DNA of 64,000 nucleotides, from NCBI RefSeq assembly GCF_027947535.2, contig NZ_JAAGKO020000008.1:62001-126000 (forward strand). Direction: 5' to 3'. Under the pieces are notes generated by a model. That model saw nothing but the letters and a program-made list of their open reading frames with translations, did not search any database and was not told the origin of the DNA. The stretch's first letter is position 1; each line of letters starts with the position of its first letter. This document shows, piece after piece, positions 7,804 to 60,605 of the stretch. The position numbers were made by a program, and so were the translations under genes. The DNA comes from Streptantibioticus silvisoli (GTDB taxonomy: Bacteria > Actinomycetota > Actinomycetes > Streptomycetales > Streptomycetaceae).

Positions 7804-9036
7804 TCACGGCGACCAGCGGAACAGCATCAGCAGCCCGACCGCGTACCACCCGGCGAACACCGCCCCGCACCCGTACAGGCAGCCCTGCACCACGCGCGGC
7901 AGCCGCGAGACCGGACGCGCGAGTAACAGCAGCATGATCGGCAGGAACGGCAGCATGAACCGCGGCTTGGACAGCGGGGAGCCGGGGGTGCCGACCATCA
8001 GCGCCCAGGCGCCGGCCAGCGCCAGCACCATCGCCCACGGCACCCGCCGGTCCAGCGCCAGCGCCAGCACCCCGCAGGCCACCAGCAGGATCAGTATCAG
8101 CACCGCGCCGTAGCGGATGTCGGCGTCGCGCCGGTAGAGCGTCACCAGCTTCAGGAAGTGCGCGGTGCCCAGGCCGAAGTCGAACGACTGGCCCCACGCC
8201 TTCTCCGCCTCGAACCAGCCGTCCAGCCGGCCGACCTGGGCGCCGATGTACAGCCAGCTGAACAGCAGCCCGGTCGGCGCCAGCGCCAGCCCGGCCCACG
8301 GCCGCCAGCCGTCCCGGCGCCGCAGCAGCGCCCAGCCGGCGCACACCACCATGACCCCGAGCAGCACCGCGGCGGTCGGCCGCATCGCGCCGGCCAGCGC
8401 GGTCAGCGCCCCCGCCGCCACCCAGCGCCGCGCCACCACCGCGATCAGCGCCCACACCAGGGCGGCGGTGAAGCAGCCTTCGGAGTACGGCACCCACAGC
8501 GCGAACGCGTACGGGGAGGCCGCCCACAGCCCCACGCAGGCGTAGCCGACCCGGCGGCCGGCGATCGAGCCGACCAGGGTGTGCACGCCCGCGGCGGCGA
8601 CGGTCGCGGCGGCCCAGGAGACCACCACGCCCGCGACGGGGAAGGACAGGCCGGTCAGGTGCACGGTGCGGATGAGCGCGGGCACCAGCGGGAAGAACGC
8701 CAGCGTCGACCACACCGGCGTGCCGTCCGGCCGGAAGGCCAGCCGCTGCGGGTAGCCGTACCGGGCGATCGCCAGGTAGTTGCCGCTGTCCCAGCGGCGC
8801 AGCACGTGCGCGGCCGGGTAGCCCATGTGACGGGTGATCACCATCAGCAGGGTGAAACCTATGGCCGCGACCCCGAGGTAGACCGCCGCCGCGGTGGCCG
8901 CCTGCCGGCGGTCGAAGCGGATCGTCACCTCGTCGCGGCGGACGGCGCCGGCGACGCGGTCGCGCCAGCCGGCCGGGCCCGGCACGGTCGTGCTCTCCGG
9001 CGAACTGCGGGGGCCGGGCGGGGCGGTGCTGATCAT
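7804..9036 (-). CDS. Membrane mannosyltransferase-like protein (PIG-V/GT-C type)
   Basis: A 410-residue protein with about 9-11 membrane helices. The first outside loop carries RRWDSGNYLAIARYGYPQ, which resembles the WD-x-x-x-Y segment typical of PIG-V-like GT-C mannosyltransferases of actinobacteria. A later VPYSEGCFTAALVW segment and a GxAxAMRPTA helix also fit that family. It would take a polyprenol-phosphate-linked sugar and transfer it on the outer membrane face. It reads leftward toward the nucleotidyltransferase gene, 108 bp away, with an AT-rich promoter-like stretch between, so it is a neighbour in function rather than certainly the same transcript. ATG at 9036. Confidence 0.75.
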   Translation of the reverse strand: MISTAPPGPRSSPESTTVPGPAGWRDRVAGAVRRDEVTIRFDRRQAATAAAVYLGVAAIGFTLLMVITRHMGYPAAHVLRRWDSGNYLAIARYGYPQRLAFRPDGTPVWSTLAFFPLVPALIRTVHLTGLSFPVAGVVVSWAAATVAAAGVHTLVGSIAGRRVGYACVGLWAASPYAFALWVPYSEGCFTAALVWALIAVVARRWVAAGALTALAGAMRPTAAVLLGVMVVCAGWALLRRRDGWRPWAGLALAPTGLLFSWLYIGAQVGRLDGWFEAEKAWGQSFDFGLGTAHFLKLVTLYRRDADIRYGAVLILILLVACGVLALALDRRVPWAMVLALAGAWALMVGTPGSPLSKPRFMLPFLPIMLLLLARPVSRLPRVVQGCLYGCGAVFAGWYAVGLLMLFRWSP

Positions 9037-9155
9037 GGAACGGGGACTCCGGGCATGGGCGGGGACGCGTCACTACGTAAGAGACGAAACCACGGCCGCG
9101 GGTTCATCGCCCACCACGAACAACGCCCACGGGCATCGTCGGGACCCACGCGAAC

Positions 9156-9197
9156 GGCGGCGGGCCGCCGGCTTCCGCAAGCCGGGGACCCGCCGCC
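9156..9197 (-). terminator. Hairpin terminator after pyruvate kinase
   Basis: A long stem (9156-9164 with 9189-9197, continued by 9168-9174 with 9179-9185, loop CCGC) sits 8 bp beyond the pyk stop codon on the minus strand. Confidence 0.75.
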
Positions 9198-37265: not shown

Positions 37266-37766
37266 GTGGCCATGGTCGGTCGGGGAACGTCGCATCAGTC
37301 ACCGCCGTCGGGCACCGTCGCGCCGACGTGGCCGGCGGTGCCGAGGGATCTGCACGACGCCTACATCCTGGAGGTCCTCGGCGACCCCTCGGCCGGCGAG
37401 GTCTGCTTCCAGTCCCGCCCCGAGTCGGCCTCCACAGCCCGCCGCCTCACCCTCGCCAAGCTCCGCGCCTGGGGCCTGGGACCGCTCAGCGACACCTGCG
37501 AGCTGCTGGTGTCCGAACTCGTCGGCAACGCGGTGCGCCACACCGGTGCGCAGACCTTCGGCCTGACCATGGAACGCCGCCGCGGCTGGGTCCGCGTCGA
37601 GGTGCGCGACCCCTCCCGCGCCCTGCCCTGCCTGCTGCCGGTGCAGGACCTCGACGTCAGCGGCCGCGGGTTGATGCTGGTCGACAAGCTCTCCGACCGC
37701 TGGGGGGTGGACCTGCTGCCGCGCGGCAAGACCGCCTGGTTCGAACTGCGCGACGGCGAGCGCTGA
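37266..37766 (+). CDS. RsbW-like ATP-binding protein (HATPase_c, anti-sigma factor type)
   Basis: A 166-residue small kinase-fold protein common in Streptomyces. N box: LLVSELVGNAVRHTG; G1: WVRVEVRDPSRALP; G2: VSGRGLMLVDKLSDRWGV. Such proteins bind sigma factors or anti-anti-sigma (STAS) partners and can phosphorylate the latter on Ser. No cognate sigma factor or STAS gene is adjacent; the nearest STAS gene is at 55650. Start is GTG 37266 or ATG 37272. Confidence 0.85.
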   Translation: MAMVGRGTSHQSPPSGTVAPTWPAVPRDLHDAYILEVLGDPSAGEVCFQSRPESASTARRLTLAKLRAWGLGPLSDTCELLVSELVGNAVRHTGAQTFGLTMERRRGWVRVEVRDPSRALPCLLPVQDLDVSGRGLMLVDKLSDRWGVDLLPRGKTAWFELRDGER

Positions 37767-53464: not shown

Positions 53465-54061
53465 CATGTTCTGGAGGGCCCATGGAAAAGACTCCCGCTC
53501 CCACGGTGCGTGCAAGCGCGCAGGCTGCCCGTTGAAGGGCCGCTCCGGACGTGGCGCGGAACGTCACTAGGTCGGACCGCGACCGTACTGGTCTCGTCTC
53601 TGCCGGCACCTGGCGGACTTCGAGACGCGAGCCAAGACGTCGGACCCGTTGAGGGCAACTGAGGCAGCCGACGTGAGGTGCGAGGTCGGTGACTTCCTCA
53701 ATGGCCGGTGATGTTGATGTGATCGGCCAGGTCGGCGTCAAGGTCCTCCCGGTTGTCACCACGTTTAACGGCAGGCCCAGGTAGCGGCCGTCAATGCCGC
53801 AGATCAGGCAGGCGCCGCAGCCAGCTGTGTCATGGCGGCCTGGGTCGCGGACCCTCTGGGGTCCAGTCTCACGCCCCCTCGGTATTGCACTGGGCGACCA
53901 TTGGGGACCACCATCAGTGCTTCTCGATGGTCAACGCGCCCAGAGAACGGCGCCGTAGTCCGGTGAGCAGATCGATGGCGCGTGTTCGCCCGCACGATCA
54001 AGCCCCGGCTCGTAGCTGCGTTCAGGTTTCTGCCGGAGCGGGACCTCCCCGGAGCGGGTTC
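53465..54061. other. Lower-GC stretch without supported genes
   Basis: About 600 bp, visibly less GC-rich than its surroundings, with broken frames only. One short rightward frame (around 53700-53785) reads AGDVDVIGQVGVKVLPVV, which faintly recalls the start of phage tape-measure proteins. I regard the region as decayed element sequence. Confidence 0.45.
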
Positions 54062-54316
54062 CCCCGAGCGGCCTCACCGGTGCCACACCTCACCGGAGCC
54101 ACACCTCACCGGTGCCGGACCTCACCGGTGCCGGACCTCACCGGTGCCGGATCTCACCGGTGCCGGGCCTCGCCCCCAGCGGCCTCACCGGTGCCGGACC
54201 TTCCCCCGAGCGGCCTCACCGGTGCCGGATCTCACCGGAGCCGGACCTTCCCCCGAGCGGCCTCACCGGTGCCACACCTCACCCGTGCCACGCCTCACCG
54301 GAGCCACCTCACCGGA
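54062..54316. repeat. 16-bp repeat array with interspersed spacer unit
   Basis: About twelve copies of a 16-bp unit near CCTCACCGGTGCCGGA, with variants (GGAGCC, GCCACA), interrupted at intervals by a CCTTCCCCCGAGCGG spacer. Ends 25 bp before the aldo/keto reductase stop codon. Open frames across it are repeat translations. Confidence 0.95.
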
Positions 54317-54341
54317 AGCCGGCCCTCCCGCGGAACCCCCG

Positions 54342-55337
54342 TCAGTTCCCCACGCCGAGGCTGGACATGAGCGCCGGCGGGTAGCGGTCGCCGCGGGCCG
54401 CGCCCGGCGGGACCGCCTTCTCGATCGCGGCGAGGTCGTCCGCGGTGAGGTCCACCTCCGTCGCGGGCAGCGCCTCCGCCAGCCGTTCGCGGGTGCGGGC
54501 GCCGACCAGCGGCACGATGTCCCCGCCCTGGGCGGCTACCCAGGCGATGGCCAGCTGAGCGACGGTGCACCCCTTCGCCTCGGCGACCCGGCGCAGCGCC
54601 TCCACGAGGGCGAGGTTGTGTTCGACGTTCTCCCGGGAGAACCGGGGGGTGTGGCCGCGGCTGTCGCCGGGGTCGGCCTCGTGCCCGGCCGTCCAGTGCC
54701 CGGAGATGAGGCCGCGGCTGAGGACGCCGTACGCGGTCAGCCCGATGCCCAGCTCCCGCAGCGTGGGCAGGACGTCCGCCTCCACCGCGCGGGAGATCAG
54801 CGAGTACTCGATCTGGAGGTCGGCGATCGGGTGCACGGCGTGCGCCCGGCGGATCGTCGCCGCGTCGACCTCCGAGAGCCCGACGTGCCGTACGTACCCG
54901 GCGTCGATCATCTCCTTGATCGCGCCCACCGTCTCCTCGATCGGTACGGCCGGGTCCAGCCGGGCGGGGCGGTAGATGTCGATGTGGTCGGTGCCCAGCC
55001 GGGTCAGCGAGTAGGCCAGGAAGTTCTTCACCGCCTCGGGGCGGCCGTCGGCCCCGCCGAACCCGGGGCCCGGCGCTCGCAGCATGCCGAATTTCACGCT
55101 CAGCAGGTAATCGTCCCGGTCCCGGCCGCGCAGCGCCTCGGCGAGCAGCAGCTCGTTGTGGCCCATGGCGTAGAAGTCGCCGGTGTCGATCAGCGTGACG
55201 CCGGCCTCCAGCGCGGCGTGCACGGTGGCGATACTCTCCGCGCGGTCGGCCGTGCCGTAAACGCCCGACATACCCATCGCCCCCAGGCCGAGGGCGGAAA
55301 CGGCCGGGCCGGTGCTTCCCAGGGTTCGCGTCTGCAT
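54342..55337 (-). CDS. Aldo/keto reductase
   Basis: A 331-residue AKR family enzyme (NADPH-dependent carbonyl reductase). Visible: LGSTGPAVSALGLGAMGMSG, LIDTGDFYAMGHNELLLAEA (catalytic Asp and Tyr), then SVKF where the catalytic Lys lies, and a cofactor end QGGDIVPLVGARTRERLAE. Substrate unknown. ATG 55337 with a strong GAAGGAG site. Monocistronic. Confidence 0.93.
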   Translation of the reverse strand: MQTRTLGSTGPAVSALGLGAMGMSGVYGTADRAESIATVHAALEAGVTLIDTGDFYAMGHNELLLAEALRGRDRDDYLLSVKFGMLRAPGPGFGGADGRPEAVKNFLAYSLTRLGTDHIDIYRPARLDPAVPIEETVGAIKEMIDAGYVRHVGLSEVDAATIRRAHAVHPIADLQIEYSLISRAVEADVLPTLRELGIGLTAYGVLSRGLISGHWTAGHEADPGDSRGHTPRFSRENVEHNLALVEALRRVAEAKGCTVAQLAIAWVAAQGGDIVPLVGARTRERLAEALPATEVDLTADDLAAIEKAVPPGAARGDRYPPALMSSLGVGN

Positions 55338-55619
55338 CGTGCTCTCCTTCGTCGTCGTTCCACCACCCACCCTGCGCCCGCGCGGCACCGGATGGCAGCG
55401 GAGCGTTCGTCCTGGGAGAGCCGGTCCCTGGCTGGGCCCGCCGGCAAGGCGTACGCCTCCCGCGCGGCCCGCCAACGCCCGTACCACCCGTGAACGCCCG
55501 CGCGGGCGCGTGGTCCGTGTCGAGCGACGCCCCCGCGCCGCCGGGCCCGGCTGATGCCCGGGGCGGGCAGGCGCTCCGCCGCCCAGGACGTCAGCCCCGG
55601 CCCCGGGACCGTCAGCGGC
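55338..55619. other. Intergenic, no gene seen
   Basis: 282 bp between the AKR start and the rsbV-like gene end. It carries the AKR promoter and GC-rich filler only. Confidence 0.5.
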
Positions 55620-55646
55620 TCCCGGGCCGATCGGCCGATCCCGGGA
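55620..55646 (-). terminator. Hairpin after the rsbV-like gene
   Basis: TCCCGGG and CCCGGGA (55620-55626 and 55640-55646) flank a palindromic GGCCGATCGGCC. It begins 4 bp after the STAS-gene stop on the minus strand. Confidence 0.45.
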
Positions 55647-55649
55647 CCG

Positions 55650-56090
55650 TCAGCCCGATGATCCGGACGAAACGTCCCAGCCAGTCCCCTCCGCGTCCCG
55701 GCGAGCGCCGCCCCCGGGCTGCACGCGCCGGCCGAGACCGCCGGCGGGCCGGTGGCGGCGGGTGGCGGTGCGGGTGTCGGGGTAGAGGGCGAAGACCTGG
55801 TCCAGGCCCACGATGCCGAGGATTCTGCGGGTGTTGGCCGGGACCGCGGCCAGGGCGATGTCGGCGCCCGCCTCGGCGGCGAGGTTGCGGGCGGCCACCA
55901 GGGTGTTGATGCCGCTGGAGTCGCAGAACCGCATCCGGGCCAGGTCCACGACCAGCAGTTGCCCGTCGGCCATGGGGAGGGTCTCGACGGTGCGGCGCAG
56001 GTCGGGGGCGGTTTTGTGGTCGAGGTCGCCGGTGATCGCCAGGACCGGGCCGGTCGCGGCGTCCCGCGTGGTGATCGTCAGCGGGTTCAT
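55650..56090 (-). CDS. STAS-domain anti-anti-sigma factor (RsbV-like)
   Basis: A 146-residue protein whose first ~105 residues form a STAS domain: LAITGDLDHKTAPDLRRTV, LLVVDLARMRFCDSSGINTL with the phosphorylatable Ser of DSSG. The last ~40 residues are Arg/Gly-rich. ATG 56090 overlaps the phosphatase stop by 4 bases, so it is made with it. The phosphatase would dephosphorylate it, freeing it to bind an anti-sigma kinase (RsbW-like). Confidence 0.9.
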   Translation of the reverse strand: MNPLTITTRDAATGPVLAITGDLDHKTAPDLRRTVETLPMADGQLLVVDLARMRFCDSSGINTLVAARNLAAEAGADIALAAVPANTRRILGIVGLDQVFALYPDTRTATRRHRPAGGLGRRVQPGGGARRDAEGTGWDVSSGSSG

Positions 56091-57367
56091 GCCGGACCGC
56101 CGCCCGCGGGGGCGAGCGCGGGCGCGCCGAGGGCCAGGAGCGCGGTGTCGTCGTCGAGGCCGTCGCCGAAGCTGTCGAGCAGCGCGGTCAGGGCGGTGAC
56201 GAGCGCCTGGGGGCCGGTGGCGGAGGGCTGGGCGGTGGCGAAGGCGCGCAGGGCGTCGTCGCCGTACAGCTCGCGCCGCGGGCCGATCCGGGCCTCGGTC
56301 AGGCCGTCGGTGTAGAGCAGCAGGGTGTCGCCGGGGACCAGCATGGTGGACGCCGGGGTGAACTTCGCCCGGGGCATGATGCCGATGAGCATCCCGCCGG
56401 GGGTGGGCAGGTACTCGGCGCCGCCGTCGGCCCGCCGCACCAGCGCCAGCGGGTGGCCGCCGGAGGCCAGGTCCACGGCGAAGCCGTCGTCCCGCCGTTC
56501 CAGGGTGCCGTAGATGGCGGTGCAGTAGCGGGTGTCGCCGCTGCTGTAGCGCTGGCTCAGCACGGTGTTCAGCGTGGTCAGGACCTCGACGGGGTCGGGG
56601 TTGTGCAGGGCGGCGGCGCGCAGCGTGTAGCGGGTCAGCGAGGTGACGGCCGCCGCCTGCGGGCCCTTGCCGCACACGTCGCCGAGGAAGAAACCCCAGC
56701 GCGCGTCGTCCAGCGGGAACAGGTCGTAGAAGTCGCCGCCCAGCAGGTCGGGGGAGGCGGTGTGGTAGTGGGAGGCGGTCTCCAGACCGGGGATGACCGG
56801 CAGCGCGGTGGGCAGCAGGCTCTGCTGGAGGACGGCCAGCGCCTCCTGGAGACGCTCGCGGTCGGCCTCGGCCTGCCGGCGCGCCTGCTCGGCCGCCTGC
56901 CGGCCGCGCAGCAGCTCCGTCTCGTACGCGCGGCGGTCGCTCGCGTCGAAGACGGTGGTGCGCACCAGCAGCGGCTCGCCGTCCGCGCTCGTCTTCACCT
57001 TCGACGTCACCAGGACCGGCAGCCGTGCGCCTTCGGCGGCCCGCAGTTCCATGGCGATGCCGTTGACGTGGCCTTTCATCTGGAGCAGCGGGGCGTAGTG
57101 CGTCTCGTGGTAGAGCTTGCTGCCCATGGTGAGCAGGTCGGTGAACCGCATCCGGCCCACCACCCGCCGGCGGGACAGGCCCAGCCAGTCCAGCAGGGTG
57201 GTGTTGATCTTCGCGATGGTGCCGTCCATCAACGTCGACAGGTAACCGCACGGCGCCTGCTCGTACAGCTCCTCGGCGCTGTCCTCCAGCAGGGCGGTGA
57301 AGGCCGCGTCGGTGGTGTCCACGTCCTGCTCCTCGTCCGGGTCGGGCAGGGCGCCGGTGCGGCACAT
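56087..57367 (-). CDS. PAS-PP2C phosphatase (RsbP-like)
   Basis: A 426-residue cytoplasmic protein of RsbP design: a PAS domain (about residues 25-150, with APCGYLSTLMDGTIAKIN), a coiled-coil linker (ETELLRGRQAAEQARRQAEA, then QEALAVLQQSLLP), and a SpoIIE/PP2C domain. Metal-binding Asp are in LGGDFYDLFPLD, GDVCGKGPQAAA, LLLYTDGLTEARIG and DDDTALLAL. I start it at ATG 57367, one base overlapping the RsbQ-like stop; GTG 57370 is possible (GTGA overlap). Its substrate is expected to be the STAS protein encoded next. Confidence 0.92.
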   Translation of the reverse strand: MCRTGALPDPDEEQDVDTTDAAFTALLEDSAEELYEQAPCGYLSTLMDGTIAKINTTLLDWLGLSRRRVVGRMRFTDLLTMGSKLYHETHYAPLLQMKGHVNGIAMELRAAEGARLPVLVTSKVKTSADGEPLLVRTTVFDASDRRAYETELLRGRQAAEQARRQAEADRERLQEALAVLQQSLLPTALPVIPGLETASHYHTASPDLLGGDFYDLFPLDDARWGFFLGDVCGKGPQAAAVTSLTRYTLRAAALHNPDPVEVLTTLNTVLSQRYSSGDTRYCTAIYGTLERRDDGFAVDLASGGHPLALVRRADGGAEYLPTPGGMLIGIMPRAKFTPASTMLVPGDTLLLYTDGLTEARIGPRRELYGDDALRAFATAQPSATGPQALVTALTALLDSFGDGLDDDTALLALGAPALAPAGGGPA

Positions 57368-58170
57368 CACCGGCTCCCTCCGAGGAAGGCGGTGATCGCC
57401 TGCGCGGTGGCCTCGGGGGCGCTCAGCTGGGGGCAGTGCCCGGTCGCGTTCAGCGTCACCAGGCGGCTGCCGGGGATCGCGGCGTGGACGTAGGCGCCGA
57501 CCTCGCGGGGCGCTATCACGTCGTGCGCGCACTCCAGGACCAGGGTCGGCACCGTCACCGTCCGCAGATCCGCGCGGCTGTCGGTCAGGAAGGTCGTACT
57601 GGCGAAGACCCGGGCCTTGTCGGGGTCGGCCGCGCAGAACGACGCGGTCAGCTCGGCGCCGAGTTCCGGCCGGTCGGGGTTGCCCATGATCACCGGGGCC
57701 ATCGCCGCCGACCAACCCAGATAGTTCGAGTCCAGCGACTCCAGCAGCTCGTTGATGTCCTCGGCGCTGAACCCGCCGCGGTAGCCGTCCTCGTCGATGT
57801 ACCGGGGCGAGGGGGCGACCATGACCAGGCGGGAGAACCGCTCCGGCTCCTTCGCCGCCGCCAGGACGCCCACCATCGCGCTCACCGAGTGCCCGACGAA
57901 CGCCACGTCCCGCAGGTCCAGTTCCTGGCAGACGTCCAGCACGTCCTGGGCGTAGCCGGCCAGCGAGGAGTACCGCTGCTCACTCCACGCCGAGGAGTCC
58001 GAACGTCCCGATCCCACGTAGTCGAACAGCACGACGCGGTACTCCTCGGCCAGCGCCGGGACCACCATCCGCCACATGTTCTGGTCGCAACCGAACCCGT
58101 GCGCCAGCAGCACCACCGGCCCGTCCGCCCGACCGGTCACGGTGACGTTGTTCCTGTGGCGAATATCCAT
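57367..58170 (-). CDS. RsbQ-like alpha/beta hydrolase
   Basis: A 267-residue protein that closely follows Bacillus RsbQ: RHRNNVTVTGRADGPVVLLA, HGFGCDQNMWRMVVPAL, LFDYVGSGRSD, YAQDVLDVCQELDL, FVGHSVSAMVG (nucleophile Ser about residue 90), VLECAHDVIAP and LNATGHCPQLSAPE. RsbQ is the partner of RsbP in energy-stress signalling and is a relative of plant karrikin/strigolactone receptors. ATG 58170 chosen over TTG 58179, as GGGAG is too close to the latter. First gene of the rsbQ-rsbP-rsbV-like operon. Confidence 0.93.
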   Translation of the reverse strand: MDIRHRNNVTVTGRADGPVVLLAHGFGCDQNMWRMVVPALAEEYRVVLFDYVGSGRSDSSAWSEQRYSSLAGYAQDVLDVCQELDLRDVAFVGHSVSAMVGVLAAAKEPERFSRLVMVAPSPRYIDEDGYRGGFSAEDINELLESLDSNYLGWSAAMAPVIMGNPDRPELGAELTASFCAADPDKARVFASTTFLTDSRADLRTVTVPTLVLECAHDVIAPREVGAYVHAAIPGSRLVTLNATGHCPQLSAPEATAQAITAFLGGSR

Positions 58171-58224
58171 ACCAGTCAATCTCCCACTACCCCGGAAGCC
58201 GCGATGGCCCGGATGGTGCGGCCC

Positions 58225-58249
58225 CTACCCCGGATCTCGCTGAACAGGC
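58225..58249 (-). promoter_or_regulatory. Stress-sigma-like promoter for the rsbQ operon
   Basis: Read leftward: GCCT, a 15-base gap, GGGTAG, ending about 55 bp before ATG 58170. It fits the GNNT-N14-16-GGGTAC/T pattern of streptomycete sigma-B except for the last base. Confidence 0.35.
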
Positions 58250-58437
58250 ATCGTGCTGGACATGTGTATGGGGCGGCCGGTGGGGGCGGCCGGTGGGCCG
58301 GTCCACGGATCGGTCGGCGGGGCGGCCTGCGGGGGCTGGACGGCGGGTGGAGTCGGGGGCGTTGAAAAGGGGGGAAGCCGGGGCCGTCGGAGGCGGGGCG
58401 GTGGGAACGCGCCACGGCGGGCGGTCCGGCGAGCCCC

Positions 58438-58532
58438 CAACGGTGGCGATCGTCAACGGTGGCGATCGTCAACGGTGGCGCCTCCCAACGGTGGCGATCC
58501 CTCCGCAGCGGCGATTCAACGGTGGCGATGCA
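58438..58532. repeat. 16-bp repeats upstream of hsp20
   Basis: Units starting CAACGGTGGCGATCGT repeat in tandem three to four times (58438-58485 most regular), followed by two looser copies. They end about 15 bp before the tandem dyads. Confidence 0.85.
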
Positions 58533-58547
58533 ACGACGGCGAGCGCG

Positions 58548-58593
58548 CGTCATCCACTCGATGACGTAAGTGTTTGTCATCGGATGGATGACA
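58548..58593. promoter_or_regulatory. Two tandem RheA-type operators
   Basis: CGTCATC-N5-GATGACG (58548-58566) and TGTCATC-N5-GATGACA (58575-58593), centres 27 bp apart. The second equals the operator described for RheA, the thermosensing repressor of hsp18 in Streptomyces albus. They lie 73 to 118 bp before the hsp20 start. Confidence 0.75.
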
Positions 58594-58665
58594 TGATAGA
58601 AATGAGGGCAGCAGAACCGCAGCGGCAGTGGCAGGTACTGCCCGATCCCCTGGAGGTGTTTCGTG

Positions 58666-59097
58666 ATGTTGATGCGTACTGACCCCTTCCGTGAGTTCGA
58701 CCGGCTCGCCCAGCAGCTGCTGGGGAACGCCGGCACCTGGTCCAAGCCGTCGACGATGCCGATGGACGCCTACCGCGAGGGCGAGGAGTACGTCATCGCC
58801 TTCGACCTGCCCGGCGTGAGCGCCGAGGCGATCGACATCGACGTCCAGCGCAACATGCTCACCGTCAAGGCCGAACGACGCCCCGCCGCCAAGGCCGACG
58901 ACGCGCAGATCGAGCTGTCGGAACGCCCGCTGGGCGTCTTCTCCCGCCAGCTCGTGCTCGCCGACACCCTCGACACCGAGCACATCAGCGCCGACTACGA
59001 CGCCGGCGTGCTGACGGTGCGCATCCCCGTCACCGAACGCGCCAAGCCCCGCCGGATCGCCGTCGGCGGCACGTCGGCCCACCAGATCACCGGCTGA
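58666..59097 (+). CDS. hsp18: Small heat-shock protein (Hsp20/alpha-crystallin)
   Basis: A 143-residue ATP-independent chaperone. The alpha-crystallin domain (about residues 30-130) has PMDAYREGEEYVIAFDLPGV at its start, LTVKAERRPA and DAGVLTVRIPVTERAKPRR (with the GVLTVRIP signature and the terminal I-x-V near RRIAV). GGAGG lies 9 bases before ATG 58666; GTG 58663 and ATG 58672 are alternatives. The gene symbol follows the S. albus homologue because of the RheA-type operators upstream. Monocistronic, ended by a hairpin. Confidence 0.93.
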   Translation: MLMRTDPFREFDRLAQQLLGNAGTWSKPSTMPMDAYREGEEYVIAFDLPGVSAEAIDIDVQRNMLTVKAERRPAAKADDAQIELSERPLGVFSRQLVLADTLDTEHISADYDAGVLTVRIPVTERAKPRRIAVGGTSAHQITG

Positions 59098-59119
59098 TCC
59101 GCACCCGGCCCCCCGGACA

Positions 59120-59161
59120 CCGGAGGGCGGGCGCGCAGACCCCCGCGCCCCCGCCCTCCGG
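59120..59161 (+). terminator. Hairpin terminator after hsp20
   Basis: A long GC stem (59120-59135 with 59144-59161, a 2-base bulge) 23 bp after the stop codon. Confidence 0.65.
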
Positions 59162-59397
59162 CCAACGGCCGCCCGAGCCGCCGACCACGACCCCGCACAC
59201 GACCGCGCCGGTCCGCCACCGCGCCCGTCCCGTCCCCGCCCGGCCGCCGTCGCCGGGCAGTCGTCGCCGTACCCGGCGGCCCACGTCCCGTGATCCGTAA
59301 GGCAGATGACACCCGGTTCACGCGGGAGTCGGCACCGTTTCCCGGCCGGGCGTCCCCCGGCCTGTTCCTCCGCATACGAAAGGCGAGTGCGTCACCG

Positions 59398-59844
59398 ATG
59401 TCCCTCCACACCATCCGCAGCGCACCGGGTATGGCGTACGGGCAGTTGCTCGAACGAGTGCGGTACGACGGTGCGTACCCCACCCGTGAACGGGCCGAGC
59501 GGGCCGTCCGCGACGTACTGGGCGCCCTCGGCCGCCAGTTGACCGGCGAGGAGCGCGCCGCGCTCGCGGCCCGCCTCCCCGCGGAGGCGGCCTTCGCCCT
59601 CAACGCCCAGGCCTCGGACACGGCCCCGGCCGCCGAGGCGCTCACCGGCTGGGGGTTCGTCAAGGAACTCGCCGCCCGCACCGGCGGCACCCCCGCGACG
59701 ACCCGGTGGGACACCGGCGCGGTCCTGTCCACCGTCGCCCACCTCGCCGGCGAGGACTTCGTCGCCCGCGTCATCGCACGACTGCCCCCGGGCTACGCCC
59801 TGCTGTTCGGCCGCATCGAACTCAGCCGCGCCGAGGCCGCCTGA
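59398..59844 (+). CDS. DUF2267 protein
   Basis: A 148-residue soluble, helical protein of the DUF2267 (PF10025) type: ERVRYDGAYPTRERAERAVR, LGRQLTGEERAALAARLP and then HLAGEDFVARVIARLPPGYA. These proteins are often found near stress genes in actinobacteria; no activity is known. ATG 59398 chosen; the ribosome site is weak. Between hsp20 and a tiny hydrophobic protein. Confidence 0.8.
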   Translation: MSLHTIRSAPGMAYGQLLERVRYDGAYPTRERAERAVRDVLGALGRQLTGEERAALAARLPAEAAFALNAQASDTAPAAEALTGWGFVKELAARTGGTPATTRWDTGAVLSTVAHLAGEDFVARVIARLPPGYALLFGRIELSRAEAA

Positions 59845-59996
59845 CCCGGCGTGACGTGGAGGCGTTCGCGGCGCGTCCCGTACGCCGGTGCGGATGAGGA
59901 ACGAGTGGCGTCGATCGTGGTGGCCGGGAGAGGGATGAGAATTCTCCGCATGTATGCGTGACGTAAGGGCAGAAGCGTGTCAGGAGGTTGATGACA

Positions 59997-60167
59997 ATGG
60001 GTGCTCTTCTTTTGGTTCTTCTGCTGGCACTGATCCTCGGCGGCGTGGGATTCGCCGTGCATATCCTGTGGTGGATCGCACTGATCGTTCTGGTCGTGTG
60101 GCTGCTCGGATTCGTCTTCCGCAGCGCCGGATCGGGCGGTTCGCGGGGCCGCTGGTATCGATGGTGA
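59997..60167 (+). CDS. Tiny hydrophobic membrane protein
   Basis: A 56-residue protein made of two hydrophobic runs (LLLVLLLALILGGVGFAVHI and LWWIALIVLVVWLLGFVF) and a basic tail GRWYRW. I know this as a common small Streptomyces hydrophobic protein of unknown function. AGGAGG lies 9 bases before ATG 59997 (ATG 59991 is too close). A strong terminator follows at 60225. Confidence 0.8.
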   Translation: MGALLLVLLLALILGGVGFAVHILWWIALIVLVVWLLGFVFRSAGSGGSRGRWYRW

Positions 60168-60224
60168 ACGGTTGGGCGCAAGCGCTCGATCGCACCTGAT
60201 CGCGCAGAGAAGTGCGCGTAGACA

Positions 60225-60256
60225 TGGGGGTCGCACCGGATTCGGTGCGACCCCCA
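60225..60256 (+). terminator. Strong hairpin terminator
   Basis: A perfect 14-bp stem (60225-60238, 60243-60256) with loop GATT, 57 bp after the tiny hydrophobic protein gene. Confidence 0.8.
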
Positions 60257-60377
60257 GTCATGTTCCGGAGGCGCTGGCTCGTTACGGATTTCGAATGTCG
60301 CCGCGCAGCCGTTGCAAGGCTGAGGGACGGAACCGCGGTCCTGCTCGCGATGGGGCGGGATCGGTGATCACCGCAGG

Positions 60378-60605
60378 TCACCGGGTACCTGCGAACGCGG
60401 TGGAATCGGGCAGCCGGTGAATCCCGGTGATCAGGGAAACGAACCCGGTATCGACCGCCGGAGCGGGCAACGGGTCGGGCGGTTCCGCCTCCGGGGTCCG
60501 GCGGTAAAGCTCAAGGCTGAACTCCGCCGTGTGTAGCCGTACGTACCGGCCGTGCCACCTCCGGGTGAGCGGCCAATGCTTCCGGACCGGCCCGGAGTTC
60601 CTCAT
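60378..60605 (-). CDS. Small hypothetical protein
   Basis: A possible 75-residue protein, basic at the start (VRKHWPLTRRWHGRYVRLHT) with EFSLELYRRTPEAEPPDPLP after it. Codon third positions look about 80 per cent G/C and the composition is protein-like, which lifts it above the shadow frames. A GGGGA site lies about 9 bases before ATG 60605. I do not recognise the family. Confidence 0.4.
   Translation of the reverse strand: MRNSGPVRKHWPLTRRWHGRYVRLHTAEFSLELYRRTPEAEPPDPLPAPAVDTGFVSLITGIHRLPDSTAFAGTR

Follow-up and report, generated by a model that had tools for sequence, protein, structure and literature searches.

An rsbQ-rsbP-rsbV operon in Streptantibioticus silvisoli, a well-preserved member of the described RsbQ-PAS module

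Three overlapping genes of Streptantibioticus silvisoli raise the question of whether they form a sensory system of a known type and, if so, what feeds it and where its signal goes. The window, i.e., the whole stretch of DNA analysed here, comprises 64,000 nucleotides of contig NZ_JAAGKO020000008.1, and positions below refer to it unless another contig is named. The earlier note had read the genes as an rsbQ-rsbP-rsbV operon joined by 1- and 4-base overlaps, and both coordinates and overlaps hold: the minus-strand reading frames lie where they had been placed and encode homologues of RsbQ, RsbP and RsbV in a translationally coupled unit. The features are as follows.

57367 to 58170, minus strand: rsbQ, alpha/beta hydrolase (reading frame and Pfam; best solved relative 1wom)
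56087 to 57367, minus strand: rsbP, N-terminal PAS domain, helical linker and C-terminal SpoIIE/PP2C phosphatase (reading frame, Pfam, model)
55650 to 56090, minus strand: rsbV, STAS anti-anti-sigma protein (reading frame and Pfam)
58178 to 58186, minus strand: TGGGAGATT, conserved extended -10-like element 7 bases 5' of the rsbQ ATG (upstream regions of relatives)
58225 to 58249, minus strand: GCCTGT-N13-GGGTAG, the weak sigma-B-like candidate of the earlier note (sequence; not conserved)

The stop codon of rsbQ (TGA, 57369-57367) shares 1 base with the ATG of rsbP (57367-57365) in the junction TGATG, and the rsbP stop (56089-56087) overlaps the ATG of rsbV (56090-56088) by 4 bases in the junction ATGA. 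A second open start of rsbQ, TTG at 58179, lies upstream of the ATG at 58170; RsbQ residue numbers count from this TTG (P0001), and 3 is to be subtracted for numbering from the ATG. Pfam identifies RsbQ as an alpha/beta hydrolase, RsbP as PAS_9 plus SpoIIE, with PAS_9 at 27.1 bits (cut-off 27), and RsbV as STAS. Among NCBIfam models, RsbQ draws hydrolase names only, all far under cut-off, and RsbV matches the anti-sigma-antagonist superfamily at 57.0 bits (cut-off 53.45). The operon is flanked by an aldo/keto reductase gene downstream and a divergent Hsp20 gene (58663) upstream, and an Rfam search of 54000-60500 gave no match. Between rsbQ and the Hsp20 gene, positions 58428-58529 hold a short tandem repeat of CAACGGTGGCGATC-like units. 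Positions 58575-58593, 5' of the Hsp20 gene, read TGTCATC-N5-GATGACA, a pattern that presumably resembles the RheA operator, which the main text of PMC11754652 does not spell out; it matches exactly once in the window and never in 100 shuffles.

Two samples place the operon among its relatives. Sample A, the best 80 of at least 560 loci in the genome collection, is biased to close relatives; within it, rsbP follows rsbQ in 80/80 loci and rsbV is present in 76/80. Sample B takes 200 genomes evenly from the family and, with an rsbQ threshold of E 1e-60 or better, yields rsbQ in 67 genomes and 72 places, the source genome included. At the 71 places outside the source genome, rsbP always follows rsbQ (71/71) and rsbV is found in 57 by tblastn or 56 by the STAS profile with a position limit. 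Thus rsbV, absent in 14/71 places, is not an obligate part of the operon. The samples overlap, and their 151 loci reduce to 145 distinct RsbQ sequences. Counting the window and without de-duplication, the rsbQ-rsbP junction is TGATG in 130 of 152 loci and rsbV starts with ATGA or GTGA in 113 of 131, so that the junction overlaps recur more than chance allows. The operon, which had been presented as notable for a streptomycete, is in fact common there (67/200 family genomes), and its type was described in 2011 (PMC3183031).

The identity of the hydrolase is clear. The closest solved protein is B. subtilis RsbQ (1wom, E 1.5e-86), followed by 3qvm (E 7.7e-71) and by plant receptors from E 2.3e-60; the kinship with karrikin and strigolactone receptors, which share the fold, is thus real, and the RsbQ match ranks first among solved relatives, ahead of the KAI2/D14 class. 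The catalytic triad Ser98-Asp220-His248 is invariant in 145/145 distinct relatives, and so are F29, V99, F137 and F197. These are the equivalents of F27, V97, F136 and F196 of B. subtilis RsbQ, which Kaneko et al., as cited in PMC3183031, tied to the cavity and its gate.

RsbP bears the marks of the PAS class that partners RsbQ. The class residues that Nadezhdin et al. defined are present in its PAS domain, namely the hPhG motif with C40, L79, K84, Y86, H90, P93, E107 and P117, and those counted in the relatives are nearly constant (C40 in 145/145; L79, K/R84, Y86 and H90 in 144/145 each; P117 in 143/145; E/D107 in 142/145). The residues tested in B. subtilis RsbP are C10, L48, Q53, F55, Y59, E72 and P86 (PMC3183031), and those of the window appear conserved in kind, a correspondence drawn by eye from the text of that paper and not from an alignment with the B. 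subtilis RsbP sequence itself. The aspartates of the PP2C motifs are kept mostly in 141-143 of the 145 relatives, one of them in 122. Where the PAS domain ends, window RsbP reads DAS, which we take to fit the DIT motif; relatives mostly read DAR. PMC3183031 describes the RsbP class as one without the DIT linker motif at this point.

A model of the PAS region (residues 20-165, built from 33 sequences; mean pLDDT 85.5) has a PAS fold and a following helix, the helical linker, at a pLDDT of about 66-73, at the place where an RsbP would have its coiled-coil linker. A sequence profile of the domain found no solved relative. The nearest solved folds are a mixture of LOV, heme, FAD and AHR PAS domains, and the model therefore names no ligand. 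This spread also leaves undecided a heme-binding reading of the domain, which starts from His87 at the heme-binding His position of FixL and DosP as located in PMC3183031.

The same residues and folds could be read otherwise, with RsbQ as a metabolic esterase or lactonase whose product, and not the shape of RsbQ, is the signal and fills the PAS pocket of RsbP. The intact triad in all 145 relatives would suit such an enzyme, as would a PAS domain whose fold is modelled confidently and resembles LOV, heme, FAD and AHR domains alike. PMC3183031 names the idea and says that no experiment supports it, and in B. subtilis a direct contact between RsbQ and the PAS domain was demonstrated and no PAS ligand was found. 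We consider this reading unlikely.

The third protein, RsbV, has the phosphoacceptor motif DSSG with Ser58. In the relatives with a match, Ser58 of the motif DS(S/T)G is present in 127/127 and the next residue is Ser or Thr in 126/127; beyond residue 111 or so, little is conserved.

We favour, with a probability of about 0.8, the reading that RsbQ and RsbP are a sensory pair with its own substrate, RsbV, and an output through an RsbW-type anti-sigma factor and a SigB-family sigma factor. With its Ser-Asp-His triad intact, RsbQ would serve as a hydrolase-receptor: it would meet a signal or small ligand, the latter being plausible, and, by analogy with B. subtilis, would contact the PAS domain of RsbP. 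The change would pass through the helical linker and switch on the PP2C phosphatase, which, as in B. subtilis, would take the phosphate off Ser58 of the co-translated RsbV; the direction of signalling is likewise modelled on that organism. RsbV would then strip the RsbW-type anti-sigma factor from a SigB-family sigma factor encoded elsewhere.

At the window locus itself, neither RsbW nor SigB is encoded with the operon. The term "complete operon" in the earlier note is right for the three genes; RsbW and sigma genes are missing from the locus, as that note itself had said of the adjacent positions. It had proposed the RsbW-like gene at 37266 as the partner. This gene ranks 28th of the 74 HATPase_c_2 matches in the source genome, of which 61 exceed the Pfam cut-off, and there is no reason to single it out; the HATPase match nearest to the operon is about 18 kb off. 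The source genome has 9 SigBFG (TIGR02980) genes over cut-off, with no TIGR02980 match on the contig of the window (C109).

At 9 of the 71 places of sample B, a SigB-family gene is found no more than 7 kb away, vs about 1 expected. This comparison involves two differing detectors and places that are only partly independent: at the places we used a profile of 7 of the source genome's 9 genes with a score above 100 bits, and the expectation comes from TIGR02980 at E 1e-50 or better (274 genes in 35 of 66 other genomes, about 0.95 per Mb, calculated by hand). These genes lie on differing sides and strands. HATPase proteins occur within 7 kb at 18/71 places, vs roughly 7 expected from the density in the source genome (by hand), and a HATPase gene directly follows rsbV on the same strand at 4/71 (L142, L153, L161 and L184), and at L087 of sample A. 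At L161, the genes for the sigma factor, RsbQ, RsbP, RsbV and an RsbW-like protein all share a strand; these five genes are also together on one strand at L142, where some 2 kb separate the upstream sigma gene from rsbQ. From the enrichment of both gene families near the operon we infer an output through a SigB-family factor, which these neighbourhoods support; in most relatives, the operon has neither an RsbW nor a sigma gene next to it.

RsbV might instead target a partner-switch kinase in charge of some other process, so that the output would not be a sigma factor at all; some STAS/HATPase pairs may work that way. The numbers in the source genome, with 61 HATPase_c_2 proteins over cut-off vs 9 SigBFG sigma factors, and the places where rsbV is missing (14/71) are in keeping with this, but SigB-family genes are about ninefold commoner near the operon than genome density predicts, and we regard a non-sigma output as rather unlikely.

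The operon is patchily inherited. On large contigs, 24 of 34 places are within 1 Mb of a contig end, which may or may not be the end of a linear chromosome, vs 8.1 if uniform. Relatives at E 1e-40 or better are found in 74 plasmid records, of which 11 are from Streptomyces, and rhizobial records are also frequent. On the linear plasmid NZ_CP109388.1 of S. anulatus (L195) the order Q-P-V is annotated; this plasmid carries a second hydrolase-phosphatase (RsbQ-RsbP) pair about 5 kb off.

The source genome holds a second, damaged copy. On contig C87 (about 8874-9190, L105), an rsbQ with its middle missing lies beside an intact rsbP paralogue: about the first 15 residues and the last third of the hydrolase frame are kept, and the middle, including the catalytic serine, is gone. 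The paralogue is open throughout and 65% identical to window RsbP. Its nearest relatives (including L180, L186, L188, L189, L191 and L192) adjoin a long RsbQ match, and the loss of rsbQ therefore looks recent, although an assembly fault could also produce this picture. Because the PAS domain of the C87 protein, as translated, keeps the class residues, window RsbQ might serve this orphan RsbP. Near the end of contig C40 (2236-2771, L106) there are rearranged rsbP fragments, the best short piece being 96% identical to window rsbP.

Patchiness (67/200 genomes), proximity to contig ends (24/34), the gutted second copy and the rsbP fragments in the same genome might suggest an accessory island in decay that now does little. 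The window copy, however, keeps all the catalytic and class residues checked as well as both couplings, which makes decay highly improbable; we take the operon to be a genuine, well-preserved member of its module.

How rsbQ is transcribed is a separate matter. The earlier note saw a stress-sigma-like promoter upstream, and GGGTAG boxes are indeed present at 58192-58187 and 58230-58225, the second with GCCTGT 13 bases upstream. The pattern is not conserved: a scan for GNNT...GGGWAN, which could place 57 of the 72 upstream regions, finds it in 8/57, vs a mean of 3.9 and a maximum of 8 in shuffles, and we rejected a sigma-B-like promoter of rsbQ. A sigma-70 consensus scan of 55300-58700 found no promoter. 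What is conserved lies closer to the gene. The pattern TGNNANNNT occurs at -18 to -14 of the rsbQ start, nearly always at -16 or -15, in 127 of the 141 distinct upstream regions, vs 0.97 on average, and never more than 4, in 100 shuffles. The element reads TGN[GC]ANN[AC]T (window, L025-L104, L124-L194), and TGNNANNNT also precedes the damaged rsbQ on C87. A Shine-Dalgarno reading was rejected, the core being present in the stretch in only 68 of the 127 regions with the element and the terminal T being conserved. The hexamer stops 6-7 bases short of the ATG, the spacing of an extended -10 in a leaderless promoter, which suggests a leaderless rsbQ mRNA. Leaderless mRNAs arise from about 21% of primary start sites in S. 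coelicolor, where the usual -10 is TANNNT (PMC4895711); among leaderless cases of S. lividans, 63.8% have T as the first hexamer base (PMC8079986). The canonical TGNTANNNT, with T as the first hexamer base, occurs in none of the 141 distinct rsbQ upstream regions.

Against the reading of the operon as a sensory pair that acts through RsbV on a SigB-family factor, we count the places that lack rsbV, the unconserved sigma-B-like promoter, the DAS of window RsbP, the loss of rsbQ on C87, and the lack of an RsbW or sigma gene adjoining the operon here and in most relatives.

Streptomycetes make butenolide and butyrolactone hormones, and B. subtilis RsbQ reportedly perceives butenolides, as Melville et al. 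are said to have found in 2024. The streptomycete RsbQ could be a hydrolase-receptor for hormones of these types, the bacterium's own or a plant's, that signals via RsbP and RsbV to a SigB-family factor. We hold this to be a long shot; if true, it would give the general stress response a hormone-like input. The analysis connects streptomycete operons that are numerous and patchily inherited with a module of which the B. subtilis member has this reported property. Loci of the L161 type, with sigma factor, RsbQ, RsbP, RsbV and RsbW-like protein together, are compact enough for ligand, hydrolase, phosphatase and sigma factor to be tested jointly. Among the open-access papers searched, titles and abstract openings yielded none on ligand sensing by a streptomycete RsbQ. 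Deletion of the "RsbQ-like" gene SLIV_19850 of S. lividans lowers diamide tolerance, more strongly on minimal medium (PMC6295645).

Compared with known systems, the operon is an ordinary member of the RsbQ-PAS module with phosphatase output defined by Nadezhdin et al. 2011 (PMC3183031), not a new system. It resembles the energy-stress pair RsbQ-RsbP of B. subtilis (Brody 2001, as cited in PMC3183031) in the order of hydrolase and PAS-PP2C phosphatase and in the triad, cavity and PAS-class residues, but differs in the rsbV joined to the pair and in a His (142/145 relatives) where B. subtilis RsbP has C56; the main text of PMC3183031 does not use the term STAS. S. ambofaciens and S. pristinaespiralis each have two RsbQ-PAS copies with phosphatase output according to the same paper, and the source genome also has two, although rsbQ of its second copy is deleted. 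The rhizobial plasmid systems, e.g., that of Rhizobium pRLG204, share the succession of RsbQ and a PAS protein but have a histidine kinase output. The plant receptors KAI2 and D14 are related in sequence and have the same triad, and the lid loop of window RsbQ aligns gap-free with that of HTL1 (5z7w, E 2.3e-60); the window protein is nevertheless nearer to RsbQ (E 1.5e-86) and is partnered with a PAS phosphatase, whereas the plant receptors pair with an F-box protein. To the described module the present locus and its relatives make modest additions: an rsbV joined to the pair, a conserved element at the start codon, sigma genes in the neighbourhood of relatives and a second copy that has lost most of its rsbQ.
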